Source of the DNA: Heliophilum fasciatum
GTDB taxonomy: Bacteria; Bacillota; Desulfitobacteriia; Heliobacteriales; Heliobacteriaceae
Direction: 5' to 3'
NCBI RefSeq assembly: GCF_004341395.1
Contig: NZ_SLXT01000002.1
Location: forward strand, 124,001-188,000
Length of the DNA stretch: 64,000 bases
Shown: positions 6,193-63,755 of the stretch, in pieces
How the letters are laid out: each line of letters opens with the position of its first letter
Position numbering within the stretch: the first letter of the stretch is position 1
Notes under the pieces: generated by a model
Seen by the model: the letters and a program-made list of their open reading frames with translations, nothing else
Databases searched by the model: none
What the model was told of the DNA's origin: nothing
Made by a program: the position numbers and the translations under genes

Positions 6193-7381
6193 CCGTTGCC
6201 ACCCCCAGGTGAATGAATTCGACGCGCTTGGCGGCCTTGCCGTCCATGGCTGCCGCCAAGCGTTCGAACATCTTTTCGATGTCTTCCACGCCGATATCCC
6301 GTCCGCCCAGCCCGGCGATAAAGTTCAGCGCCGGTGGTACGACCTTGTTGCCGATGAGCGCCGAATTGACGTTGGTAAAGACGGTACCTTCATAACCAAA
6401 GGAGATGTCCCGATCCAGCACGCCGACGGCGCGGGCATGGCGCAGCGCCCGGGCTACTTCCTCATGGGGGAAGGGGCGCATAAAGCGAATTTTCAGCAGG
6501 CCCACTTTTTGGCCTTGTTCCCGCAGTTGATCGACGGCCTGCCGCGCCGTGCCCGTCACCGTTCCCACCGTAACCAAAATGCGCTCGGCATCGTCGCAGC
6601 GGTAGGCATCGATCAAGCCGCCGTACGCACGGCCAAAGTGGGCATGAAAGGCCTGTTCCACCTGGGCGATCACCGGTCGTGCCGCTTCCATCGCCTGGTG
6701 TTGCTGGTATTTAAACTCCATGTTGTTGGGTGGTGTCGAACTGAAGGCCATATTCAAGGGCCGGTCTAGGTCCATTTTGACCGGTGCCTGGTAGGGCGGT
6801 AAAAAAGCATCGACCGCTTCTTGCGTAGGAACAAAGACGGGCTCATAGGTATGGGTCAGCGTAAAGCCATCTAAGTTGACCATCACCGGTGTCAGCACTT
6901 GTTCATCTTCGGCAATCGCAAAAGCCTGGATGATCATGTCAAAGGCTTCCTGAGCATCTTCCACATAGACCTGGATCCATCCTGAATCGAGGAGTGACAA
7001 GGAATCACGCTGGTCGCCGAAGATACTCCAGGGCAGCGCAACGGAACGGTTGGCGTTCATCATCACGATCGGCCAGCGACCGCCGCTGGCATAATGAAGA
7101 CATTCGGCCATATACAACAATCCTTGCGAGGAAGTGGCCGTAAACGTCCGCGTGCCCATGGCACTGGCGCCCATGGCTGCCGATAAAGCCGAATGCTCCG
7201 ATTCGACCAACATAAACTCCGTTCGCAGTTCGCCGTCAGCGACCATCTCCGACAGTCGTTCCATCGCCACCGTCTGCGGCGTAATCGGATAGGCCGTCAC
7301 CACTTGCGTACGAGAACGCTGCACGCCCAGTGCGACCGCTTCATTGCCGGAAACAAAATACTTTTGTTGCTTCATCATCAT
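6185..7381 (-). CDS. 2-oxoacid:ferredoxin oxidoreductase, alpha subunit
   Basis: A 398-residue subunit starting MMMKQQKYFVSGNEA at 7381 behind GAGGG; in-frame upstream codons lack a site. It carries the pyrimidine-binding domain (VVTAYPITPQT, SEHSALSAAMGASA) and a transketolase C-terminal-like domain (ILVTVGTVTGTARQAVD). It pairs with the TPP-binding beta subunit to form the active site. The start codon overlaps the end of the delta subunit gene by 4 nt, and the 3' end overlaps the beta gene, showing tight coupling. Confidence 0.9.
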   Translation of the reverse strand: MMMKQQKYFVSGNEAVALGVQRSRTQVVTAYPITPQTVAMERLSEMVADGELRTEFMLVESEHSALSAAMGASAMGTRTFTATSSQGLLYMAECLHYASGGRWPIVMMNANRSVALPWSIFGDQRDSLSLLDSGWIQVYVEDAQEAFDMIIQAFAIAEDEQVLTPVMVNLDGFTLTHTYEPVFVPTQEAVDAFLPPYQAPVKMDLDRPLNMAFSSTPPNNMEFKYQQHQAMEAARPVIAQVEQAFHAHFGRAYGGLIDAYRCDDAERILVTVGTVTGTARQAVDQLREQGQKVGLLKIRFMRPFPHEEVARALRHARAVGVLDRDISFGYEGTVFTNVNSALIGNKVVPPALNFIAGLGGRDIGVEDIEKMFERLAAAMDGKAAKRVEFIHLGVATDE

Positions 7382-7677
7382 GTGCCCTCCGCGGTCATGT
7401 GAATCAAGTCCTTGGGACACTCATGCACACAAATTCCGCAGCCTTTACAAAACTCCAGATCAACTTCCACTTTGTTAGCTTGGCGCGCAATGGCCCCTTC
7501 GGGACAAGCCAAGTAACAGCGCAAACAGTTGATGCATTGCCTTACATCGATCACCGGCCGCTCCAATCGCCACCCTGCCGCTTTATCGACGATGTAACCG
7601 GCCTGAAAATGAGGCCCACAGGGATAGTCACGAATATGGTTGGGCCGGGGATACTCTCGCACAGGTGGTCGCCGCAT
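7378..7677 (-). CDS. 2-oxoacid:ferredoxin oxidoreductase, delta (2[4Fe-4S]) subunit
   Basis: A 99-residue ferredoxin-like subunit with two complete CxxCxxCxxxCP clusters (CINCLRCYLACP and CKGCGICVHECP). It transfers electrons from the catalytic core to ferredoxin. Length and position between gamma and alpha match the PorD/VorD subunits. The N-terminal 50 residues (RDYPCGPHFQAGYIVDKAAGWR) resemble the usual extension that packs on the core. Confidence 0.92.
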   Translation of the reverse strand: MRRPPVREYPRPNHIRDYPCGPHFQAGYIVDKAAGWRLERPVIDVRQCINCLRCYLACPEGAIARQANKVEVDLEFCKGCGICVHECPKDLIHMTAEGT

Positions 7678-7681
7678 GTTT

Positions 7682-8221
7682 TCACCTACTCAACCTTTCA
7701 TAGGCCCGCGTAACGGCCGCCACATTACCCTTGGCCAGCGCAGGCTTCATCTCTTTTTGTACGCCTTGAACGGCGGCTTCCAGCGAAATGATCCCGGAGA
7801 CAGCCACCAATGCGCCAAGCATGGCGGTGTTGACAATGGGCTTGCCGATCGTTTCCCGGGCGATCTGCAAGGCATCAATCGTCACCAGCCGGCGGTCTCC
7901 TGCCGCATCGGGAAACCGTTCCGGCCGGCTTGTATTGAGCAGCATCAGACCGTTCGGTTTTAGATCATCCCAAAGACGAGGTGACCATAAATTTTCATCC
8001 ATCACGACGAGATAATCGCCCTGTTTGATTTCACTGCGCAGGGTGATCTTTTGATCGTCGATGCGCGTAAAGCCGAGCACCGGTGCCCCGCGCCGCTCCG
8101 GTCCAAAGGAGGGAAAAGCCTGGGCGTATTTGTTTTCAAAAAGCACAGCCGCCACACCAAGCAATCGAGAAGCCGTAAAGCCTCCTTGCCCACCGCGGCC
8201 GAGCCAGCGTACTTCGATCAT
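7682..8221 (-). CDS. 2-oxoacid:ferredoxin oxidoreductase, gamma subunit
   Basis: A 179-residue gamma subunit starting MIEVRWLGRGGQGGFTASRL at 8221; the start shares one base with the aminotransferase stop (TGATG), so the two are translationally coupled. The GRGGQG motif and GAPVLGFTRI are typical of the POR gamma domain that binds CoA. An upstream in-frame extension to 8380 would lie inside the aminotransferase gene and is not credible. Confidence 0.9.
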   Translation of the reverse strand: MIEVRWLGRGGQGGFTASRLLGVAAVLFENKYAQAFPSFGPERRGAPVLGFTRIDDQKITLRSEIKQGDYLVVMDENLWSPRLWDDLKPNGLMLLNTSRPERFPDAAGDRRLVTIDALQIARETIGKPIVNTAMLGALVAVSGIISLEAAVQGVQKEMKPALAKGNVAAVTRAYERLSR

Positions 8222-9378
8222 CAGCGATACTCCTTCAGCCGCAGCAACCGTTGCCCTGCCGCTTCCAATGTCTCCTTGCGCTTCGCAAAGTGAAAACGGA
8301 TCCACTGCTTCACAGGCTCCCGAAAAAAACTGGAGCCAGGCACCGCGGCCACACCGATTTCCCGGGCCAGCCAATGGCAAAAGTCTTCATCATCGTCGTA
8401 ACCGAAGGGCTCAATGTTGACCATCACATAGTAGGCCCCTTGCGGCACTGTGTACTCCAATTCTGCTTCCTGCAAGTAGCGCAAGAAAACGTCGCGTTTT
8501 TCGGCATATTCCGCCGTTAAACCATGGTAATAGGAATCGGGCAGTTGCAGCGCCGTCACTGTCGCTTCCTGCAGGGGCGCTGCGGCTCCGACCGTCAGGA
8601 AATCATGAATCTTGCGGCACCCGTCAATCAAATGAGGAGGCGCAATCACATAGCCCAGACGCCAGCCGGTAATAGCATAGGTTTTGGATAAAGAACTGCA
8701 CGAAAGGGTCCGTTCAAACATCCCCGGCAAGGAAGCAAAGTAGGTGTGCTCATAGGGCGCGTACACAATGTGTTCGTAGACTTCATCGGTGATCACAAAG
8801 GTATCAAAATCTTCGGCCAGCCGGGCGATCACTTCCAGTTCATCACGGCGAAAGACTTTACCGCTCGGGTTCGACGGGTTGCACAGGATCAGCGCTTTTG
8901 GCTTTTGCGCAAAAGCGCGGCGCAGTTCCGCTTCATCAAACTCATAGGCCGGCGGGCGCAGCGGCACATAGATCGGCTCAGCCCCGGTCAAAATCGTGTC
9001 GGCCACGTAGTTTTCATAAAAGGGCGAAAAGACGATCACTTTGTCACCGGGATCACAGACCGTCATCATAGCCACCATCATGGCTTCCGTACTGCCGCAG
9101 GTCACCACAATATGCTTGTCCGGATCGAGGGGAAGCTTCATCCACCGCGATTGTTTTTGGGCCAGCGCTTCACGAAAGTTCGGTGCGCCCCAGGTCACCG
9201 CATACTGGTGTGGTCCTTCATAGGTGACGCGCTCCAGCGCTTGCAACAATACATCGGGCGGGTTAAAGTCGGGAAATCCTTGCGAAAGGTTGATGGCGTC
9301 ATAGGTTTGCGCCACTCGTGTCATCCGCCGAATGACGGACTCGCCGAAAAATTGCAGTCGTTTACTTACCTGTGGCAT
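8221..9378 (-). CDS. Class I/II PLP-dependent aminotransferase
   Basis: 385 residues with the PLP lysine in SSLSKTYAITGWRLGYV, the cofactor-contact NPSNPSGKVF and the Asp in TDEVYEHIVY. The family (aspartate/aromatic/methionine aminotransferases, MtnE/YbdL-like) makes 2-oxoacids from amino acids. The gene is fused by one base to the oxidoreductase gamma gene, so its product is a likely feeder of 2-oxoacid to that enzyme. Aromatic, branched-chain or methionine substrates are all possible. It starts 38 bp after paaK on the same strand. Confidence 0.88.
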   Translation of the reverse strand: MPQVSKRLQFFGESVIRRMTRVAQTYDAINLSQGFPDFNPPDVLLQALERVTYEGPHQYAVTWGAPNFREALAQKQSRWMKLPLDPDKHIVVTCGSTEAMMVAMMTVCDPGDKVIVFSPFYENYVADTILTGAEPIYVPLRPPAYEFDEAELRRAFAQKPKALILCNPSNPSGKVFRRDELEVIARLAEDFDTFVITDEVYEHIVYAPYEHTYFASLPGMFERTLSCSSLSKTYAITGWRLGYVIAPPHLIDGCRKIHDFLTVGAAAPLQEATVTALQLPDSYYHGLTAEYAEKRDVFLRYLQEAELEYTVPQGAYYVMVNIEPFGYDDDEDFCHWLAREIGVAAVPGSSFFREPVKQWIRFHFAKRKETLEAAGQRLLRLKEYR

Positions 9379-9416
9379 TGCCAGGCCTCACTTTCTTCAT
9401 TTAATTAACGATATTT

Positions 9417-10742
9417 TCAGCCTGTTGCCTGCTCTTCGCGCTGATCGACGACGCGCTTCGCTTTATGGGTCGCCCGCGGCAACGTGTTTTCCGGGAGTAC
9501 CTTCACGTGAGCCGGACGTACGCCAAGGCGGCTTTTAATCCGGTGACTTAATTGGTCGGCCAATTCGGTTTCCGAAGCAGACAGATCATCTTTTTCCACT
9601 TCGATTTCAAACTTGGTCAAGTGATTTTCCCGGTATAAGGTGATCCGATATTCACCGTTCAAACCCGGCAGATTGCGCACCACATACTCAATATCGCTGG
9701 GGAAAATATTGACGCCGGAAACGATAAACATATCGTCAACACGGCCGAGTACTTCAAACCGTTTATGAGTACGGCCGCAAGGGCATAGCTCCGGGAACTC
9801 CTTGACGATGTCACCGGTGCGGAAACGAATCATGGGCCGTGCTTTTTTGCGCAAGGTCGTCAGCACCAGTTCACCGGCCTCTCCTGGCTTCACCGGTTGC
9901 TGCGTGTTCAGGTCAAGCACTTCCATCAGGATCTGGTCCTCCACAATGTGCAAGCCTTCACGGACTGCACACATCCCGGCGCAAGCGCCGAAGATATCCG
10001 ATATGCCATAGAAATCATAAAGTTCCGCATTCCAAAGCTTTTCGATCGCTTGCCGTGTCGCCGGGATCGATCCTCCGGGCTCACCGGCCACGATGATCTT
10101 GCGGATCGCTAAGTCCGTCGCCGGATCGATGCCATGTTTTTTAGCCGTCTCCCCGAGAAACCACGCATAGGATGGTGTTGTCCATGTCACGGTAGGCTGC
10201 ATTTCCTTGAGAATATGTAACAATCGTTCCGAAGGGATGGCCCCTGCCCAAATGCAAAGTGCCCCGAGGCGCTGGGCACCGATGACGTCGGGGCCACCGA
10301 CAAACAAGGTAAAATTAAGAGCATGAACATAGCGATCACGCGGGCGCATGCCGGCGGCCCAGAAAAGCCGGGCTTCGGCATCCTGAAAGTCATCAAAGTC
10401 TCCGGCCGTAAAGGGACTTAGCGTAGCCATCCCGGTCGAACCGCTTGACGCCGAAACAAAGACTACATCTTCTTCCGGCACCGCCACCATATCACCTAAA
10501 AGCGGAACTGCCGCTTGTCGTTCGCGCTCCGTTTGTTTATTGACGAAGGGGAATTTTCGCAGATCGTCCAGGCTTTCCAGCGTGTCCGGTCCCACACCGG
10601 CGGCATCAAAAGACTGGCGATAATAGGGGGAGTGCTCATAGGCCCAGGCTACATGCTCCCGCAATTGTTGCAGTTGATAGGCTTCCAACTCATGGCGCGG
10701 CAGGGTTTCCACTTTTTCATTCCAGTAACGTTTTTCCGTCAT
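9417..10742 (-). CDS. paaK: Phenylacetate-CoA ligase family protein (PaaK-like)
   Basis: 441 residues starting MTEKRYWNEKVETLPR at 10742 behind AAGAGG; the longer frame to 10802 has no site. It has the AMP-forming ligase P-loop SASSGSTGMAT, the DFYGISDIFG adenine contact and the C-terminal RVDDMFIVSGVNIFPSDIE, all standard for PaaK. The reaction is arylacetate + ATP + CoA to arylacetyl-CoA. Next to an aminotransferase and an oxoacid oxidoreductase, it may run toward ATP formation from aryl-acetyl-CoA or salvage free arylacetates. Archaeal and clostridial homologues occur in the same setting. Confidence 0.88.
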   Translation of the reverse strand: MTEKRYWNEKVETLPRHELEAYQLQQLREHVAWAYEHSPYYRQSFDAAGVGPDTLESLDDLRKFPFVNKQTERERQAAVPLLGDMVAVPEEDVVFVSASSGSTGMATLSPFTAGDFDDFQDAEARLFWAAGMRPRDRYVHALNFTLFVGGPDVIGAQRLGALCIWAGAIPSERLLHILKEMQPTVTWTTPSYAWFLGETAKKHGIDPATDLAIRKIIVAGEPGGSIPATRQAIEKLWNAELYDFYGISDIFGACAGMCAVREGLHIVEDQILMEVLDLNTQQPVKPGEAGELVLTTLRKKARPMIRFRTGDIVKEFPELCPCGRTHKRFEVLGRVDDMFIVSGVNIFPSDIEYVVRNLPGLNGEYRITLYRENHLTKFEIEVEKDDLSASETELADQLSHRIKSRLGVRPAHVKVLPENTLPRATHKAKRVVDQREEQATG

Positions 10743-50930: not shown

Positions 50931-53798
50931 CTACGACAAACCCTTTCCCATGCTTTTCTTCTTTAATGCCAATACACGTGGCTTTTTCGATTGCTCAAGC
51001 TCAAAGTTCATTCCAATACGATAAATTTCCGGAATATAGTATTTAAGCAACCCGTCTTTATCCGTATCTTCATAAAGAACCCCCATATTCTTCAGAAACT
51101 CCAATTGTGTTGGTGTAATCCCCAGTTGTTGAACCGTAAAAGGTACACGCCGTTTATCCGGTGCTAACTGTTTCATGTCCTCAAACCAAGTTTTAAACTC
51201 ACCGGACTCATTCATTACTTCTTCCAGCTTTTTCTCACTGCAAGGGCGCAGGGCATGCCGAATCGCCTGCGGTGGTAAGATGCGATCCTTCTGCCAATGA
51301 CGAAACCCCACCCCCTCCGCATCTTCAGATGTTTTTTTCGCTGCATGGTAAAGAAACCGCACAATATCCCGCGCTTGAAGGCGCCCTTTGAAGTCACTTA
51401 ACGCTGCATAGACCCAAGCGGCACTATTGGCTTCTTTGGAATTATCTTTTCCTAATTTTTTGCCCCAAAGCTGTTCCAGTTCATTGATAACAACGGTGCG
51501 TCCCAGCGAATTCACTTCAATTGTGGGATCGTAGAATCGCGCTTGCTGACCCAACCAATAAACAAGGTGTAAAAAAGAATCTTGATCCCACGTCAGTTCA
51601 TACGGTTTATACCGGCTTTCCATTTGCCCTGCATTTTGCCGAATGGCATAACGAAGATAATCTTTGCGCAAAAAAATGATCATCCCCAACGAAGACTGCC
51701 GCAATGTATCTTGCAACCTTTTTGGGAAATCCAACAGCGCCTTTAAAGCGACCTGCTGACTTCGTTGATCGGCAATACGATCGAACAACTCTTCCAGCCC
51801 ATCGATAATCAGCACCAAGCGAAGTCCACCTTTTTCCAATTGACGATTCAGCGTATGCATACCCGATGTAATCGCTATGTCAAGGTTCTCTTGCGCAGGA
51901 GATTCAAAGTGAATGTTCATCGCTTTGGCGATGAGATCAAGCCAATACCAAATCCAATTCAGTTCTCCCCATTCCGGTTCCCCGTCTAACTTGGATTTAA
52001 TCGCCAGATCACTGATTCCATTGGCAACAAAATACTGATGATGCGCAAATGATGCTGTTTTCGTATGTGGTTGATCCGGGCTTGGGGTAGCATCATTGAT
52101 GATTTGCGTGACTTGATCACGGGCTTCCCGGATAATTCGATTCATCTTATCGTCAAGTTGCTTCGGTGCTAATAGCGGATAAATATAGCTACAGCACTTT
52201 TTTTGCATAGCTCCGTTTTCCTTACCACTCACTTTATCCACAAAAGTTTCCCAGTGCTTACACCGCGCTAAGTGAAGATAGCTGAACGTTTTTCCCGCAC
52301 CTTTGGCACCAATGGAAATCACCTGCGGAAGTTCATCGCGATACTTGATGGCGAGATTTCGTAACGCATCCGTCACAAGCAGGTTGTCTCCGATTCCTTT
52401 TTCAGCGTATTCCTCACATTGATCCCGAAGAGCAACCACCTGCTGTAAATCATTATTTCCTTTGCGCATTCTCGCTTCGCGTCGATTGTCTTTTTTCGGC
52501 CAATTCTCACCGGCCCACTTTATAGCCATGTCTGTTAGGGAAGAGTTGGAACGGGTCTTATCACGGGCATCGTCCCAACTCTTTACATAAAGTAGTTCTT
52601 GTGAAAAGTAAGACTCCCAACAAGTCAATCGAGTATCATATCCATTGTCATCCATGTTGCTCTCGGAAAAATGCACATCATAAGCCTCTTGCAATTGCGC
52701 GACTGCATCTTCATAGACGGAGCTTTTCCGCAATTCCGGTGTGAGCATGGTAACAATGACTGTAGGATCATAATATTGTCCTCGTCCGGTTTCTTCCGGA
52801 GGCGGAGCCAATTTAGCCATCTGTTCTAACACCAAGCATGTGCCATGAATGGACTGCTCCGATAACGTCGTTACAAGAAAACGTTCGATTTGAGCATCCA
52901 TTAAAATCGGACTGGCCAGATCGCTAAGTCCTGCCCGCAAATCAATCAAGATAACGTCAGCTTGAACAGCTTGCCCCAGTTGCCTAATGGCGGTCGTTGT
53001 CTGCCAAGGATTTGCCGCACTTCGCGCTAGATGTTGCGGCAAAATCGGCGTGTCCAGCAGTTGCTCTTCCGAACAAAAAGCAGGCAGAAAAAATACTGTG
53101 GAATTGCCGATCTGTTTGCGCGAAGAAGCTAATTGATTCGTGACTGCCTCCATCGCCTTTTCCCGTTCTACCGGCGGGTAGTGATAAACTTCTAAAAAAT
53201 CAATAAATGAGATCTCCGGTTGTAAACGTTCTTGGCGATCCCAGTAGGTGAGTCCCGGTGCCTCTAGATCGGCGTCAATAACCAGAATCGATATAGGTTT
53301 ACCGGTATCATGTGCTCGTTGAAGCAACGAAAAGTAAAACCCCGCCATATGCGTCGTCCGCCCAACGCCACCTTTGAAAGAGTGAAACGCTACGATATGC
53401 GGGGGTTGCTTACCGGATGTCTTCGCTACTATCCGCGGTATCGATGTCCCCATCGGTCGCCTAAATGGTGGCTCGTCTTTTGATAAGTACGCTAATTCTC
53501 GCCAAAGGGGAACAATGACCTTTTCCTGTTTAGGCATTTCGCCGTGGACCACAAAGTCAACCGGCAAAAAGGCGTTTTCAATGTCCAAGCGAATTTGACG
53601 TCGCTCCGTATCATACCAATCCCCAAACCATTGCTGGATTTCTTGCGCAGCTTGTTGCTGAAACCCCAAACTATCGATCATAATTTCCACGCCATCGGAA
53701 AAACAGTCAATATCTTTGATGCTCAGTGGCAAATTTCTTTTATTATTCGTTAATTTACGAATCCTTCGCTCAACATCCAACCAAGTTAGTAACTTCAA
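50931..53798 (-). CDS. Two-module P-loop NTPase (MinD/ParA-like plus STAND-like), defence candidate
   Basis: About 955 residues from a TTG at 53798 that overlaps the preceding stop (TTGA), with GGAGGG upstream. N-terminal 100 residues have no known fold. Residues about 138-149 hold a deviant Walker A FHSFKGGVGRTT, then IDADLEAPGLTYWD and ILIDLRAGLSD, all MinD/ParA-like. Residues about 497-504 hold a second P-loop GAKGAGKT, with Walker B VLIIDGLEELFD near 680 and a sensor Arg in IIFLRKDYLRY, as in STAND/AAA NTPases. The C-terminus (IPEIYRIGMNFELEQS) resembles a winged helix. Predicted cytoplasmic. No family name known to me. Confidence 0.75.
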   Translation of the reverse strand: MKLLTWLDVERRIRKLTNNKRNLPLSIKDIDCFSDGVEIMIDSLGFQQQAAQEIQQWFGDWYDTERRQIRLDIENAFLPVDFVVHGEMPKQEKVIVPLWRELAYLSKDEPPFRRPMGTSIPRIVAKTSGKQPPHIVAFHSFKGGVGRTTHMAGFYFSLLQRAHDTGKPISILVIDADLEAPGLTYWDRQERLQPEISFIDFLEVYHYPPVEREKAMEAVTNQLASSRKQIGNSTVFFLPAFCSEEQLLDTPILPQHLARSAANPWQTTTAIRQLGQAVQADVILIDLRAGLSDLASPILMDAQIERFLVTTLSEQSIHGTCLVLEQMAKLAPPPEETGRGQYYDPTVIVTMLTPELRKSSVYEDAVAQLQEAYDVHFSESNMDDNGYDTRLTCWESYFSQELLYVKSWDDARDKTRSNSSLTDMAIKWAGENWPKKDNRREARMRKGNNDLQQVVALRDQCEEYAEKGIGDNLLVTDALRNLAIKYRDELPQVISIGAKGAGKTFSYLHLARCKHWETFVDKVSGKENGAMQKKCCSYIYPLLAPKQLDDKMNRIIREARDQVTQIINDATPSPDQPHTKTASFAHHQYFVANGISDLAIKSKLDGEPEWGELNWIWYWLDLIAKAMNIHFESPAQENLDIAITSGMHTLNRQLEKGGLRLVLIIDGLEELFDRIADQRSQQVALKALLDFPKRLQDTLRQSSLGMIIFLRKDYLRYAIRQNAGQMESRYKPYELTWDQDSFLHLVYWLGQQARFYDPTIEVNSLGRTVVINELEQLWGKKLGKDNSKEANSAAWVYAALSDFKGRLQARDIVRFLYHAAKKTSEDAEGVGFRHWQKDRILPPQAIRHALRPCSEKKLEEVMNESGEFKTWFEDMKQLAPDKRRVPFTVQQLGITPTQLEFLKNMGVLYEDTDKDGLLKYYIPEIYRIGMNFELEQSKKPRVLALKKKSMGKGLS

Positions 53799-54238
53799 GC
53801 CAATTCCCTCCCGACCCAAGTAGCGATTCGCTCCAAGCGGTCTTCCAATTCTTGATCACTGTATGCCTGCGACGAACCACCATAGCGCCACATTTGATTG
53901 TAATCACCTGCATAAACTTGTCGGCTTATGTAGTTCCCGTCGTCACTCCGCAAATCATTCATTGCTGTTACTGGTAAGTTAAGATCTTTTCCGGCTCGTA
54001 GTGTATCCAGTAATTCATTGATGTCATGCTGTATTTTTCTGAATTGCCGGGAACTTAACCTTCCACCGGTGTAATCTTCACCGTTTCGCACCATGATCAA
54101 AGCTTTTAAACCACATTCGACCGCATAGAAAAGCAATAAGCGCCTTGTATTCGAGGTATTCGCGTCATTTATCTGTCTCGCGGCTTGGTAATGCCGCCAC
54201 CACGCATTTTTCATTTCCCGACGGCTAAAGGGTATCAC
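53795..54238 (-). CDS. HEPN-like small protein, first gene of the NTPase cassette
   Basis: 147 residues, GTG start behind GGAGG. All helical; the segment LLLFYAVECGLKALIM followed by HDINELLDTL is the usual HEPN helix pair. An R-x6-H pattern is present (Arg64-His71 in RQFRKIQH), compatible with a HEPN ribonuclease site but not at a fully standard position. Its stop codon overlaps the start of the large NTPase gene by 3 nt, so the two are made together. Function unproven. Confidence 0.65.
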   Translation of the reverse strand: MIPFSRREMKNAWWRHYQAARQINDANTSNTRRLLLFYAVECGLKALIMVRNGEDYTGGRLSSRQFRKIQHDINELLDTLRAGKDLNLPVTAMNDLRSDDGNYISRQVYAGDYNQMWRYGGSSQAYSDQELEDRLERIATWVGRELA

Positions 54239-54306: not shown

Positions 54307-54971
54307 TCAGGGTGCCGTATCAGTATGAATATTCCCAATCATTTTTCTCAATTCCAGGATTTGCGCCAAGGGCAAGTCCGTGATTCTCGCAACATATTCC
54401 GGGTCTGAACCATTTTCCAGCAAAGCGATGGCAACTTTTATGATCCCTTCTTTGATCCCTTCCTTTTTACCTTCCCGCTTCGCCCTGGCCCGCTTGTCTC
54501 TAAGATAAAGCCCATACTTCATACACGCCCAATAATCATCCCGCACATTAGGATCATCGCTAATCCGGTTCACGTTGTTCATTGTCCGTTGCAAAATCTC
54601 ATCATAGGCTGTCATCTGCTCCACTTCCCGTGCAATTTCCGGGTCATCCGACGCCAACAACAAAAGCAACTGTTTCAACGCCTGCTCACCCAGTCTTTCC
54701 ATTTCCCGCTTTCAAACTCCTTACGCACCCGCCGGAGATCCAAGAAAATGCTCTCCCGCCGCTCTGTTAGTAAAACCCGCCGCCGATCTTCCCACCAGTG
54801 AAATTCATAGCGATAGTCATCGCTACCCGGGAAAGGTTGATAATTGGTGCTTACCACTGATATCGCCCCGTGTACATCCAGATAGCCATTGCCCTCCGTC
54901 ATAATATCGGCAAACATGGCGGCAATATAGTACACAATGCAATTACTCCTAATCCCCATAAATATTTCCAC
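54307..54971 (-). pseudogene. Broken PD-(D/E)XK transposase-family (Rpn/PF12784-like) gene
   Basis: Two pieces in different frames. 54971-54675 encodes VVSTNYQPFPGSDDYRYEFH and LLTERRESIFLDLRRVRKEF, the middle of a PDDEXK_2 protein; 54702-54307 encodes EQALKQLLLLLASDDPEI, AKREGKKEGIKEGI and ENGSDPEYVARITDLP, its C-terminus. The N-terminal nuclease core is missing and a frameshift sits near 54690. Relic of a recombination-promoting nuclease family. Confidence 0.75.
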
Positions 54972-55023: not shown

Positions 55024-58000
55024 ATGACATACGCCACCATCACCGACCACCTCAAAACCCTGCAAAACCAACTTCGCGAAATCAACAGATCCCACCCTTC
55101 CCTCTGTCTCAAAAAAATCAAAGACAACCAAGCCTTCGACCTCACCCAACTCGACACGCTCACCGCCCCACCCACAGCCAAAAGCAAAGCAAAACCCCAG
55201 CTTAACTCGTTCTCCTCCCGCCTGCTCAACGACCTCATTAATACCAACAGCGCCCTCATCCTCAGCAACCGCCACACCAGCCCCGAAGCCGCCCACCTGT
55301 CCGCCAAATTAACCCGCCTCAGCAAAGAAGCCAACCAGCGCAGCGACCAACTGGGCCTGTCCCAACTCCACATCGGCTACCCCTTCCTCCGCGGCACCTT
55401 CGCCAACGGCAACGCGCTCCAATGCCCCCTCCTGCTCATCCCCGTCAATCTTACCCGTAAAAAAGACGGCGAAAGCGGCTGGTACCTCGACCGGGACACC
55501 GACGAACCCATCCGCCTCAACGCCATCCTTCTCAAAGCCCTGGAGCAATACAACCAACAACGCATCGAAGCAACCATCGAAGACGCTCTCATTCCCCTGC
55601 TCTCCACCCCGTCCCTTTTGCTGGAGCAAATCGCATCAATCCTGCAACACTACGCCATCCCCTGCCAACCCATCCTCACACCGGCCGCCCCCATAAGCAA
55701 CCAAGGCATCGCCCCAACCGGACCCCGCCTCCGCTCCACCGACACCACCCCGGAACCCCCACCCGAAGCTTTCTTTCCCACCCTCCCCTTTATCGAACTA
55801 CCACCATCGCCATCGGCCAAACCCCTCGCCCCATCGCCCATGGAACTCTACCCCTTTCCGCTCCTCGGCCTTTTCCCTCAAACCAACGACGAAATCCTCA
55901 AAGACCTGGACGAAATCACCAAGAAAGTCCCCCAGATCGGCCTCGTCGGCACCCTGTTACCGTTCATCGATGAAGCAGACGACGCTCCTCTGGAAACCAT
56001 CGACCCCGGCCGCTGCCCCGCTCTCGACCTCGATAGCCTCCCCACCGAAGCCAACATGCACGTCTATCCCGTCGACGCTTCCCAAGAAGAAGTGATCTAC
56101 GCCCTTTCCCAACCGGATCTGCGGGGCCTTGTCGTCAAAGGCCCGCCCGGCACCGGCAAATCCCAATTGATCATCAACCTGATCGCCAACGCCCTCGGCA
56201 AAGGCGAAAAAGTCCTCGTCGTTTGCCAAAAACGCACCGCCCTCGAAGTCATCCTGGAACGGCTGCAAACCTTACAACTCGATGGCCCTACCTTACTCAT
56301 CAGCGATCCCAACAAAGACCGCAAAAGCTTCTATCGTCAAATTGAACGTTTGCTCTCAGCCGATTTTCACCATACCCTGGATGACAACCACACCGCCTAT
56401 CAGAAACTTGCCAAACAAGTCGACGATCATACCCAGGACCTCAAGAACATTCACGATGCCCTGCACAGCCCCCGCCCTTGGGGCATACCAGCCTATCAAC
56501 TCTATCGCAACAGCAACAAATTTGAAGATCCCCGAACCTTTCTGGCTCTTACCGACATGGCCGATCAAGTAACGTCCGAAGCGATGGAGGAAATCGCCGC
56601 GAAGATGGAAAAACTCGGTCAATTGCACAGTCGCTTTGGCCATCACCACTACCCGCTGTTCCATCGCCACTCCTTTCAGGACGGGACCCTGCAAAACCGT
56701 GAACGTTATCGGGCATTGCTCGCCACGGCTATGGAGCAGTGGCAAAGCATCGCCACCCTTAGCCAAACCTTTCAAGTCCCCCCTTCCCCGGAAACATGTT
56801 GGAAATTTGAAAAAGCCCTGCGCCATCAGCTATCCCAGCAAAGCACCCGCCCCTTTTTCGGTTCCTTCCTCAATTACCTGCGGGACTTCTCCCATCGCCG
56901 CTCCCTCCATCCATGGCTGGCTACGATCAAGCTCACCGCCTCCAACGCTGCCAACCTCCCCACAATCGATGACTCCGCAAAAAAAGTACAAAACATCCTG
57001 GAATATACCAACGCCACCCAACAGTTCCATGCCACCGTAGATTCCCTTACTGAGTTCCTGCAACCCCAAGCCCTCCAGCCGTTCCGCGAGGCTCTTATTA
57101 CCGGCAATATCGAAGGCATACAAAAAAGGCTGCAAGCGATCGCTTCAGCCTTGACTACCGATTATGATGACCTTTGCCAGATGGATAGCGCTATCCATCG
57201 CCTCAACCCGCTCGAACAACGGCTGCTTGCACTGCTTCAAAAGCAACTCCCCCCGCAACCCGGAGAAAACATCGCCGAACGCTGGGAAGAAGCCATACGC
57301 CAATCCTTTTACCATGCCTGGATTGATTGCGCGGAAACAACCCATCCCAAACTAAAAGAATTTCATACCGAGGATATCGATGATTTACCCCAAAAATGCA
57401 AGCGCCTGCTCGATGAGAAACAAAAACTGACTCCCAAGGCATTACAAAGCCGCTGGGGAAACCGTATCCAGCAAACCTTCGAAGCCCATCCCGCTCTTAA
57501 AGGCCAACTCCGCTCATCCATTATCGGCAAAGCCAAAAAACAAAGTATCCGCCGATGGATCGAGAATTTCAATAATCCGAAGAATACGAAGGCCAATCAT
57601 ACGCAGGCATTATTGGAATTGCTGCCGATCTGGCTGTTGTCCCCGTCCGCTGTCTCATCGATTTTACCGATGGAAAAGGAGCTGTTCGATCTCGTCATCT
57701 TCGACGAAGCATCCCAATGCCCCTTGTCGCACAGCATTCCTGCAATTTACCGGGCAAAAAAAGTGGTTGTCGTCGGTGACGAATACCAACTGCCGCCATC
57801 GACCGGATTTGTCACCCAAGATGACGATGATGATAGCGAAGACACATCCCCGCCGGAAAGCCTGCTCCATCAAGCTTTGAAATTTTACGACACCAAGATG
57901 CTCAAATGGCATTACCGTTCCACCCATGCCGACTTAATCAACTTTTCCAATTACGCTTTTTATCGCGGCCAACTGCAAACCCTTTCTCATGCCCGAAGCC

Positions 58001-58959
58001 ACCGGATCAAACCGATTGAATGGTATCAGGTAGACGGACAATGGCGCGATAACGCCAACCACGAAGAGGCCGAAAAGGTCTGCGATCTGCTTGCCCATCT
58101 TGCTTCCTCATCACACCACCATGGCAGTGCCACCTACCCAACCGTGGGGATTATCACCTTCAATGCCAAGCAAAGCAATCTGATCATGAAAAAAATCGAT
58201 GCCCGCAAAGAAAAAGACTTTGCTTTTCGTTCGCAAGTTGAAGCGATGGAAACCAATCCGGCTGGGCCACTTTTTGTCAAAAATATTGAAAACGTGCAAG
58301 GTGATGAACGGGAAATTATCATCATCTCTGTTGGTTATGGGCGCAACGAAGAGGACAGATTCATTCAAAGGTATGGCACAATCAATGAACCCGGCGGTGA
58401 ACGCTATTTGAATGTAGCGATTACACGAGCCAAAGACAAAATCTTTGTGCTATGCAGCATGCCGCTGGTGATGCCGAACAATTGTAAAAATGAAGGCCCC
58501 AAGCTATTTATTTACTATCTTCAATACGCCAAAGCCGTGTCCGACGGTGACCGGGAACGGGTCGACCAGATACTTCATCAGTTGAACGATGCACTTCGGA
58601 CCAAGTTTCAAGAAAAGGACAAGCACTTTGACAGTATATTTGAAGAGCAAGTCTACGCGTGCCTGCAAAAGCGGAATTATCAGCTTGATACACAGGTCAA
58701 ATGTGCCGGCTACCGGATTGATTTGTCCATCGTTCATCCTCATGATCCAACGCGCTACCTCTTGGCGATTGAATGCGATGGGGCTACCTACCATAGTGCC
58801 CCTTCGGCTCGTGAGCGGGATATCTACCGGCATAACTTCCTTGAAAGCCGGGGGTGGAAAATCCATCGGATTTGGAGTCGCAATTGGTGGAAAGATCGGA
58901 ATTCGGAGATTGAAAAAATTGAGCGGGCAGTTGCGGAAGAGTTACGGCGAAATCCGTGA
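55024..58959 (+). CDS. DUF4011-type superfamily 1 helicase with C-terminal Vsr-like nuclease
   Basis: 1311 residues, start behind CGGAGG. N-terminal region (LREINRSHPSLCLKK) is DUF4011-like. Helicase motifs: I GPPGTGKSQ (near 374), II FDEASQC (near 892), III GDEYQLPPS (near 918), V/VI VQGDEREIIIISVGYGR and NVAITRAKDKI. The last 110 residues (EEQVYACLQKR, YRIDLSI, AIECDGATYH, FLESRGWKIHRIW) are an MTES_1575/Vsr-like nuclease with Asp and Glu-Cys-Asp. Similar DUF4011-helicase-Vsr proteins are anti-phage defence proteins. A Pro-rich linker lies at 230-275. The first two thirds uses very C-rich third positions, unlike the end. Confidence 0.85.
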   Translation: MTYATITDHLKTLQNQLREINRSHPSLCLKKIKDNQAFDLTQLDTLTAPPTAKSKAKPQLNSFSSRLLNDLINTNSALILSNRHTSPEAAHLSAKLTRLSKEANQRSDQLGLSQLHIGYPFLRGTFANGNALQCPLLLIPVNLTRKKDGESGWYLDRDTDEPIRLNAILLKALEQYNQQRIEATIEDALIPLLSTPSLLLEQIASILQHYAIPCQPILTPAAPISNQGIAPTGPRLRSTDTTPEPPPEAFFPTLPFIELPPSPSAKPLAPSPMELYPFPLLGLFPQTNDEILKDLDEITKKVPQIGLVGTLLPFIDEADDAPLETIDPGRCPALDLDSLPTEANMHVYPVDASQEEVIYALSQPDLRGLVVKGPPGTGKSQLIINLIANALGKGEKVLVVCQKRTALEVILERLQTLQLDGPTLLISDPNKDRKSFYRQIERLLSADFHHTLDDNHTAYQKLAKQVDDHTQDLKNIHDALHSPRPWGIPAYQLYRNSNKFEDPRTFLALTDMADQVTSEAMEEIAAKMEKLGQLHSRFGHHHYPLFHRHSFQDGTLQNRERYRALLATAMEQWQSIATLSQTFQVPPSPETCWKFEKALRHQLSQQSTRPFFGSFLNYLRDFSHRRSLHPWLATIKLTASNAANLPTIDDSAKKVQNILEYTNATQQFHATVDSLTEFLQPQALQPFREALITGNIEGIQKRLQAIASALTTDYDDLCQMDSAIHRLNPLEQRLLALLQKQLPPQPGENIAERWEEAIRQSFYHAWIDCAETTHPKLKEFHTEDIDDLPQKCKRLLDEKQKLTPKALQSRWGNRIQQTFEAHPALKGQLRSSIIGKAKKQSIRRWIENFNNPKNTKANHTQALLELLPIWLLSPSAVSSILPMEKELFDLVIFDEASQCPLSHSIPAIYRAKKVVVVGDEYQLPPSTGFVTQDDDDDSEDTSPPESLLHQALKFYDTKMLKWHYRSTHADLINFSNYAFYRGQLQTLSHARSHRIKPIEWYQVDGQWRDNANHEEAEKVCDLLAHLASSSHHHGSATYPTVGIITFNAKQSNLIMKKIDARKEKDFAFRSQVEAMETNPAGPLFVKNIENVQGDEREIIIISVGYGRNEEDRFIQRYGTINEPGGERYLNVAITRAKDKIFVLCSMPLVMPNNCKNEGPKLFIYYLQYAKAVSDGDRERVDQILHQLNDALRTKFQEKDKHFDSIFEEQVYACLQKRNYQLDTQVKCAGYRIDLSIVHPHDPTRYLLAIECDGATYHSAPSARERDIYRHNFLESRGWKIHRIWSRNWWKDRNSEIEKIERAVAEELRRNP

Positions 58960-61227: not shown

Positions 61228-62061
61228 TTAGACGTCTTCTTTTTTACCGTTGTAGGGCGTTGCCGTCATGAGTAAGAAATGGCGACTGATCGAACCCAGT
61301 AGTTCACCGAGGAGAAATCGTTTGGTTTTGCTGATTTTGGTGCCGGAGTAGCTGGCCGACATTTTGTGAGCTTCATCGACGACAATGAGATCGCAACGAG
61401 TGAGGCGTAGTTTTTGCTGCAGTTCGTCGTTGCGGGAAAGTTGATCAATCCGGACGACAAGCAGATCGATATCATCAAAAGGATTGCCGCTGGGGGATTG
61501 AGCCACCATATCCCGACTAAAGATGGTAAAGGCGAGGCCGAATTTTTCATGTATTTCATCTTGCCACTGCTCCACCAAGCTACCGGGGGCGACGATGGGC
61601 ACGCGTTTGGCGTCGGCCCGCATGAGCAGTTCACGGATAAACAAGCCGGCCATGATCGTTTTGCCAGCACCGGGATCGTCGGCCAAGACGTAGCGCAGCG
61701 GTTGCCGGGTAAGCATGGACTCGTAGACGGCCATAATCTGATGGGGCAACGGATCGACGTTGGAGGTATGTACGGTCATCATGGGGGCAAAAAGATGGGC
61801 CAAATTGATGCTGTACGCTTCGGTGACAAGCTTAAGATCGGCTCCCGGTGCATCAAATGCCCACGGGCGACCGGCCTCAGCCAAGGATAGATTCGCTTCA
61901 TCGGTGCGAAAAAGCATCCGTTCTGTTAAGCGGCCATCGGTGGTTTTGTAGTATACAGTGATGGCGTTATTACCAACCGGTTCAGTGGTGACGACGCGGA
62001 CGATTTGGTTTGATTCGATACCGGCGATGGCAGTTTCTTTCTTGATGTCTTCGAGTTTCAT
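61228..62061 (-). pseudogene. SNF2-type helicase, N-terminal fragment
   Basis: 277 residues, start behind AGGTGA. It has the Q-motif-like [11 protein letters not shown], motif [14 protein letters not shown] (Asp where Glu is usual), Ia [23 protein letters not shown] and [13 protein letters not shown], then stops at KKEDV. The second RecA domain and the rest (several hundred residues) are gone. This family (COG0553 type) is found beside DUF1156/DUF499 genes in defence loci, and a DUF499 relic lies 1.6 kb downstream on the same strand. Confidence 0.75.
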
Positions 62062-63044: not shown

Positions 63045-63755
63045 CTATACCGCATGAACACACGTACTCTCGCAAGTAATCCTAACTTTCATCACCTTGT
63101 CAGACTCAGCATTTGGCTCAAAAGTAATCACACACACTTCGATTCCGCAGTGTTTCGCCAAGTAATGCCCGATATCCCTACTATAGAAGGCAGGCACATA
63201 GCCTATCTTAACTCCATTTTCGGAAAAAATTCGAAGCGCAAATGGATCAAACAGGTTATTTTCCTCATGAACAAGATTCAGTCGTTCGCCTTGCGCAAAA
63301 TCATTGACGCCGAAATTCCCCTTTGCCCCCCAATACTTCCATCCTGCTACATAGAAATCATGTTGAAATGATTGATTGTCACAATTGGCCATCACTTTGG
63401 CAAACTCAAAATAATCTGTCACCAGTTTTCCGCCTGTTGCCGATAAAATCGCAAAATCATCACTATCAACGGTCAATGCATATTTGCTAAGAATGTCCCT
63501 ATAATCGGGCCTTTTTTTATTCGGCAACCTTCTGGCAAATGCATTAAACAATTGATCGGACTCATATTGTTTTCTTATATCCGGAAAAGCCGGGTGAGGT
63601 AGGCATCCGTTCTTTTCGGCTTCTTTTAATTTTTCCTCATTGTACTGAAAATAATAGTTCCCCTGATCTCTCCATAACTCGCCGATAGCATGCCTTAAGC
63701 AGGTTTGCGGATCCTGCCAGATCAGCCATAACCGGTCTTCCGCTTTTGGTGTCAT
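63045..63755 (-). CDS. HIRAN-domain protein with HipA-N-like region
   Basis: 236 residues, start behind GGGGTGAAAGG. The N-terminal half (GELWRDQGNYYFQYNEEKL, LPHPAFPDI, LFNAFARRLPNKKRPDY) resembles HipA N-terminal domains. From about residue 135, VAGWKYWGAKG, GERLNLVHEENNLFDPFAL and GVKIGYVPAFYSRDIG make a HIRAN domain, which binds DNA ends or damaged DNA. Stand-alone HIRAN proteins are common in defence islands. It has its own terminator. Confidence 0.75.
   Translation of the reverse strand: MTPKAEDRLWLIWQDPQTCLRHAIGELWRDQGNYYFQYNEEKLKEAEKNGCLPHPAFPDIRKQYESDQLFNAFARRLPNKKRPDYRDILSKYALTVDSDDFAILSATGGKLVTDYFEFAKVMANCDNQSFQHDFYVAGWKYWGAKGNFGVNDFAQGERLNLVHEENNLFDPFALRIFSENGVKIGYVPAFYSRDIGHYLAKHCGIEVCVITFEPNAESDKVMKVRITCESTCVHAV

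Follow-up and report, generated by a model that had tools for sequence, protein, structure and literature searches.

A fused variant of the phage defence candidate PDC-M28 in Heliophilum fasciatum

PDC-M28 is a phage defence candidate listed in PADLOC-DB 2.0 (models PDLC04557-04561), with a putative anti-phage role, and comprises three genes encoding (i) a HEPN protein (A), (ii) a protein with a KGGVGR-type MinD/ParA domain (B), and (iii) a P-loop ATPase (C). The PDC set is reportedly described in a 2024 preprint by Payne et al. The open-access literature, which does not cover this preprint, yielded neither a description of PDC-M28 nor a test of it, and likewise no relevant work on KGGVGR or Sll1717, the terms under which NCBIfam names the two ATPase modules. 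Here we describe a 64,000-nucleotide stretch of the H. fasciatum genome (contig NZ_SLXT01000002.1, positions 124,001 to 188,000, forward strand; hereafter the window), which carries a two-gene cassette, composed of a small HEPN gene (A) and a large double-NTPase gene (B::C), that is almost certainly a fused relative of PDC-M28.

Other described systems share parts of this architecture. HEPN-MNT toxin-antitoxin modules possess an adjacent MNT nucleotidyltransferase, whereas no nucleotidyltransferase domain occurs in the partner of A or in the flanking genes scanned. The MAE_18760 HEPN likewise lies beside a ParA-type ATPase, in an operon with a ParA/Soj SIMIBI protein, but belongs to another HEPN family with an intact Rx4-6H motif, and no STAND half is described there (PMC3710099). 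The VMAP/peptide-processing conflict systems also combine a STAND-type ATPase and a predicted-inactive MinD/ParA-like domain in one protein (PMC7159879); in contrast, the partner in the window cassette is a HEPN protein, and a scan of the flanking genes revealed none for vWA-MoxR, a peptidase, or FxSxx peptides. As for the small protein, its residues fit the alternative site of the AF0298-like HEPN-T proteins and AbiV (Anantharaman et al. 2013, PMC3710099; PDB codes 2hsb, 9bj6); compared to these, A displays an additional β-hairpin (residues 91-108) and is partnered by the double-NTPase protein, not by MNT or the AbiV partner.

Relation of the cassette to PDC-M28

The PADLOC model PDC-M28A matches residues 7-85 of A (E-value 1.5e-5) and PDC-M28B matches the first half of B::C (E-value 6.4e-18), whereas PDC-M28C gives no match on the large protein of the window even at an E-value of 1, so that the fused form may go undetected or under-called in PADLOC. 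In addition, NCBIfam NF047398 (AAA_KGGVGR) matches the B half (E-value 3.7e-48; 164 bits against a cut-off of 90) and NF047389 (ATPase_Sll1717) the C half, just under its cut-off (E-value 8.1e-18; 64.8 bits against 75), both being names of a domain or family that imply no system or function. Comparison by hhalign relates the first half to a separate B gene from a split locus (E-value 8e-17) and the second half to two split C genes (E-values 4e-11 and 1.6e-10). Because the two halves match separate B and C genes at the profile level, the large gene is assigned from sequence as PDC-M28B fused to a distant relative of PDC-M28C; A shows profile homology to the A genes of the same kind of loci.

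The unfused loci emerged when the M28B model was run across the phylum. An A homologue is present in all five split loci of this set, to which two were added later (L177 and L179), and the three C genes scanned from split loci match PDC-M28C with E-values from 1e-75 to 1e-198. An unfused A-B-C copy also resides on another contig of the same genome (L131, C33; genes at 6279-6722, 6719-8095, and 8107-9612). The window cassette shares with PDC-M28 its modules, the third as a distant relative of C, and their order, A followed by B::C on one strand as A-B-C in the split loci, and differs in that B and C are separate genes there and a single protein here. The unfused copy (L131:6279-9612) adjoins a dynamin-like gene and a gene resembling the Rex redox repressor. 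A further split copy, belonging to another genome within the family (L132:5582-8197), is damaged: A is deprived of its normal C-terminal end and B of the N-terminal part with the P-loop, and only C is undamaged.

Both genes of the cassette are intact, with lengths similar to those of their relatives, the nearest of which comes from Heliobacterium mobile, of the same family (about 50% identity over the full length of the large protein and 52% for the small one). A previous sequence-only reading of this DNA correctly delineated open reading frames of 147 and about 955 residues; its 3-nucleotide overlap at the TTGA junction needs correction, since the start codon of B::C (53798-53796) and the stop codon of A (53797-53795) make the coding sequences overlap by 4 nucleotides. 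The same reading proposed an undescribed system, a claim that by its own account a match to a named one would refute. The A and B models and the split copies provide such a match, albeit to a putative system, and the cassette, though genuine, conserved, and undamaged, is a fused form of a candidate already catalogued.

Conserved architecture of A and B::C

The AlphaFold model of A is confident (predicted local distance difference test score, 96.6) and comprises α-helices at residues 6-22, 26-52, 60-69, and 73-79, a hairpin at 91-108, and two further helices at 110-118 and 128-146. A search of the PDB by sequence returned nothing usable for A, with neither the single sequence nor the profile. 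The leading Foldseek matches in the PDB are HEPN-family structures, including 1ufb, 1wol, 2hsb, 9bj7 (AbiV), 3o10, 2q00, 4nqf, and 1o3u, and two split relatives of A exceed the cut-off of the Pfam HEPN family PF05168 (38.2 and 36.8 bits against 22). The earlier description of the small protein as HEPN-like is thereby supported.

The alignment of 81 A homologues discloses a conserved polar set, with E41 and K45 present in 80 sequences, R118 and Y119 also in 80 (the remaining row being gapped in each case), and H71 in 78. The Ex3[KR] motif is typical of HEPN families (PMC3710099). The canonical Rx4-6H motif is absent from most homologues at the expected place, R118-x4-6-H occurring in 7 of the 81, and its frequency over the whole of A does not exceed that in shuffled sequences (43 observed, 49.5 expected). 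The AF0298-type HEPN-T proteins and AbiV possess an alternative site, with (i) the R without the following H, (ii) a second conserved H in the insert between helices 2 and 3, and (iii) Ex3K (PMC3710099); AbiV shares the alternative His, and the title of PDB entry 9bj6 refers to an antiphage RNase. A accordingly belongs to the AF0298/AbiV type of HEPN proteins, displaying a non-canonical but complete conserved polar set (E41, K45, H71, R118, and Y119). A different active site, R64-x6-H71, had been put forward by the sequence-only reading and was rejected: R64 is unconserved and an Arg precedes H71 by 5-7 residues in 5 of the 81 homologues, though H71 itself is kept.

The large protein was analysed in a long-form alignment of 74 B::C homologues, across which the motifs are conserved and therefore do not represent chance occurrences. 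The N-terminal domain of B preserves W6 (99%) and D8 (100%). The following domain displays the MinD/ParA fold, with FlhG, FleN, MinD, and ParA as top PDB matches (Foldseek E-values from 3e-6 upwards; MinD-like FlhG, 3.3e-6). In its P-loop, K142-G-G and R147 are invariant; the signature Lys142 is thus kept, but the sequence departs from the deviant Walker A motif with both lysines (KGGxGK[ST]), the P-loop Lys being Arg147 in all 74 sequences. B is hence a MinD/ParA-like sandwich with an invariant Arg in place of the P-loop Lys. Judging from MinD, this exchange should impair normal hydrolysis. Kaur et al. 2020 (PMC7159879) regard MinD/ParA-like domains found in other conflict systems as predicted inactive.

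The second P-loop preserves G497, K499, G500, G502, K503, and T504 in every sequence, as does the Walker B motif for D666-G667, and the C half comprises intact Walker A and B motifs followed, after the ATPase core, by a winged-helix-like segment (alignment and model). Both P-loops and the Walker B strand that the sequence-only reading had pointed out are thus present with invariant residues, but the first P-loop is not intact as supposed. Because matches to the MinD half took up the whole Foldseek list, the C half is assigned a fold from sequence profiles only, comprising NF047389, an nSTAND1 match to the large protein below the Pfam cut-off (E-value 1.6e-4), and a weak ORC-CDC6-like match for one split C gene; these point to a P-loop ATPase of the STAND/ORC type with a C-terminal winged-helix-like segment. 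The NCBIfam, profile, and Foldseek matches agree with the earlier view that the large protein joins a MinD/ParA-type to a STAND-like ATPase, although in the profile search proposed for it the SIMIBI side (NF047398) exceeded its cut-off whereas nSTAND1 did not. The features are compiled in Table 1.

Table 1. Positions of the genes, domains, and motifs of the cassette in the window
Feature	Position	Strand	Basis
Gene A, HEPN-T-like protein, 147 residues, GTG start	53795..54238	-	PADLOC PDC-M28A, AlphaFold model, PDB fold matches
Gene B::C, 955 residues, TTG start at 53798, stop 50931-50933	50931..53798	-	PADLOC, NCBIfam, profile comparison
TTGA start/stop overlap of A and B::C	53795..53798	-	Sequence; recurs in related loci
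E41-x3-K45 motif, HEPN helix 2	54104..54118	-	Aligned homologues; Ex3[KR] of HEPN families, PMC3710099
H71 of A	54026..54028	-	Conserved in 78/81; position as in AF0298/AbiV-type HEPN, PMC3710099
R118-Y119, end of helix 3 of A	53882..53887	-	Conservation; R of HEPN motif without following H
B N-terminal α/β domain, residues 1-90, TWLDV motif	53529..53798	-	Conservation and model
KGGVGR MinD/ParA-like domain, residues 133-384	52647..53402	-	NF047398, PDC-M28B, Foldseek FlhG
Variant P-loop KGGVGRTT, residues 142-149, Arg147 in place of P-loop Lys	53352..53375	-	Alignment
DADLEAPG motif (MinD A' region)	53253..53276	-	D175, D177, and E179-A-P-G invariant
P-loop ATPase half, Sll1717/STAND-like, residues 493-891	51126..52322	-	NF047389 below cut-off; hhalign to split PDC-M28C genes
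Intact P-loop GAKGAGKT, residues 497-504	52287..52310	-	Invariant residues in alignment
Walker B LIIDGLEELF, residues 663-672	51783..51812	-	D666-G667 invariant
C-terminal winged-helix-like segment, residues 886-930	51009..51143	-	Model secondary structure; E924 and R927 invariant

Coupling, distribution, and genomic neighbourhood

A single-sequence query of genome contigs returned no relatives; an alignment query with four members was used instead and retrieved 270 relatives of the fused protein, of which 80 were kept. The upstream open reading frame matches the small-gene profile in 80 of the 82 loci where it could be tested, and the small genes of the two exceptions, the distant loci L126 and L129, match PDC-M28A directly. 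A few fused genes have no testable or intact A neighbour on account of contig ends, frameshifts, or loss (for instance L076). Among 29 loci outside profile building, A lies directly upstream in 26 by hidden Markov model and in one more by eye, the remaining two comprising one with only a fragment of A and one without A. Of 75 related loci, 32 show the same 4-nucleotide overlap and 72 have the two genes at +4 to -35 nucleotides. Moreover, the distances of A and B::C are correlated (Mantel r 0.87; none of 1000 permutations as high). A and B::C are thus translationally coupled and co-inherited, and the coupling that the sequence-only reading had seen in the pair extends throughout the family.

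The fused pair is spread over cyanobacteria, proteobacteria, acidobacteria, and other groups, with a patchy presence even within one order. With a loose threshold the fused form was detected in 34 of 291 genomes of cyanobacteria, and with a strict one in 15 of 149 genomes of one cyanobacterial order; it was also detected in 2 of 9 genomes of the window's own family, and in none of 273 other gammaproteobacterial genomes sampled around Pantoea. Among plasmids, the large protein has only two ParA-like matches, both weak and partial, and the small protein has none. In the tree, where phyla otherwise cluster, the copies of the window and H. mobile stand apart from other Bacillota and beside cyanobacterial, deltaproteobacterial, and a few gammaproteobacterial copies with 99% local support, a placement which suggests transfer.

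One side of the cassette in the window is flanked by nitrite/sulphite reductase genes. The other side comprises (i) immediately upstream of the cassette, pieces of a transposase-like nuclease of the Rpn family (PD-(D/E)XK) (54307-54971, minus strand); (ii) a DUF4011/SF1 helicase/MTES_1575 nuclease protein of 1311 residues (55024-58959, plus strand); (iii) a relic corresponding to the N-terminal piece of a DrmD/RapA-like SNF2 helicase (61228-62061, minus strand); and (iv) a gene whose product combines a HipA N-terminal domain with a HIRAN domain, each above its Pfam cut-off (63045-63755, minus strand). The 1311-residue protein is related to PADLOC PDC-S37, Hhe, and ProA, although its length falls well short of the ProA and Hhe models, and is itself a defence candidate.

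In heterocyst-forming cyanobacteria (L043, L046-L052, and others, upstream flank) the pair is found behind recG in the rpsB-tsf cluster, the genes at this site having been named from recognisable sequence and not by profile search; in another cyanobacterial group it lies beside uvrB. Elsewhere the flanks include restriction-modification, Dpd, and DISARM genes. PADLOC families number 125 among 118 flank proteins and 83 among 114 control proteins, a count that is only weakly favourable because the tool counts families and not proteins; many of the control matches stem from two reverse transcriptases, and the controls are not fully lineage-matched. The Pfam counts in the flanks lean in the same direction, with HNH_2 (4), GmrSD (3), ResIII (3), and a pair of DNA methylase families (2 each), none of which is listed at two or more in the controls.

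Possible functions of the cassette

The computation shows which modules the cassette contains, that B and C are fused, which residues are conserved, and that the pair is coupled and patchily distributed. Concerning its function, a HEPN RNase controlled by B::C and acting in abortive infection is the reading that we favour, with evenly balanced confidence, and we infer the whole of its chain of events. B::C would sit with A in a resting complex, where the Arg-variant MinD domain might bind nucleotide or dimerise without turnover, as a clamp or sensor, and would read an infection cue, be it phage DNA, protein, or a nucleotide change. The ATPase half would be the switch, changing state with ATP and releasing or dimerising A, which would then cut RNA through the H71/R118 site and halt the growth of the infected cell. 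It is possible, if doubtful, that this amounts to a new activation logic for a bacterial immune ATPase, in which a MinD/ParA sandwich incapable of normal turnover, fused to a STAND/ORC ATPase devoid of a repeat-type sensor region, would control a HEPN RNase with a His71/Arg118 site, the MinD-like module serving as the infection sensor. The favoured reading draws on the match to PDC-M28, on the coupling of A and B::C, and on the HEPN evidence for A, including the alternative His shared with AbiV. The patchy presence of the pair, its nested tree, and the helicase, Rpn relic, SNF2 relic, and HIRAN-HipA gene in the window flank correspond to the behaviour of a conflict system and also argue for it.

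Several observations weigh against this role: (i) A itself scores under every Pfam HEPN cut-off, and its Foldseek matches are weak (E-values 0.1-0.7, template modelling score about 0.45); (ii) no Pfam repeat family, and hence no repeat-type sensor region, is found in the large protein, whose 955 residues are filled in the model by the N-terminal domain, the MinD half, the ATPase, and the winged helix; (iii) the viral contigs searched contain no relatives; (iv) the flanks are weakly enriched for defence families, so that of the neighbourhood survey proposed from sequence the persistence of the pair holds but the defence-island setting is faint; (v) the recG site is fixed in 11-12 cyanobacterial loci and therefore unlike that of a mobile defence gene; and (vi) neither PDC-M28 nor its fused variant is known to have been studied by experiment.

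It is rather improbable that A is not an enzyme but a nucleotide- or substrate-binding adaptor resembling the nucleotidyltransferase-linked HEPN-T proteins, leaving the ATPase/MinD protein as the effector, through ParA-like DNA binding for instance. Such an adaptor would suit the 74 of 81 homologues in which R118 lacks the Rx4-6H context, the MinD/ParA fold of the partner, and the nearest folds of A, which are PF05168 HEPN-T proteins, substrate binding having been considered as a role for several of them (PMC3710099). However, E41, K45, H71, R118, and Y119 are nearly invariant, with H71 at the alternative His position of AF0298/AbiV, whereas inactive HEPNs are expected to lose their conserved polar residues (PMC3710099). 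The tight coupling with overlap, the well-known HEPN toxins with antitoxin partners (PMC3710099), and the stable chromosomal place beside recG or uvrB in cyanobacteria are also consistent with a toxin-antitoxin-like or stress module, where B::C would restrain a HEPN toxin and free it on metabolic or DNA stress with no specific phage role. The patchy distribution is compatible with this proposal as with defence; nevertheless, a 100-kDa double NTPase is far above the size of known antitoxins and its intact ATPase with a winged helix resembles a signal-responsive switch, which makes the module quite unlikely to be of this kind. A cellular function in DNA repair or replication control would account for the rpsB-tsf-...-recG-A-B::C order common to the 11-12 loci and for the adjoining uvrB, but appears very improbable for a pair carried by so few genomes of the order and, at the looser threshold, of the class, and whose neighbours elsewhere are wholly different, including the restriction-modification, Dpd, and DISARM genes.

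As the fusion shows, B and C of this catalogued, still putative system work as a single machine, and their near-constant linkage to a HEPN protein with an unusual active site leads to a concrete effector hypothesis, centred on H71 and R118. Current defence-finding models may miss the fused form, on which the C model gives no match and which counts 270 pattern-matched relatives in one genome collection. Finally, the compact two-gene version would make the question of whether an Arg-variant MinD domain might act as an immune sensor easy to address.

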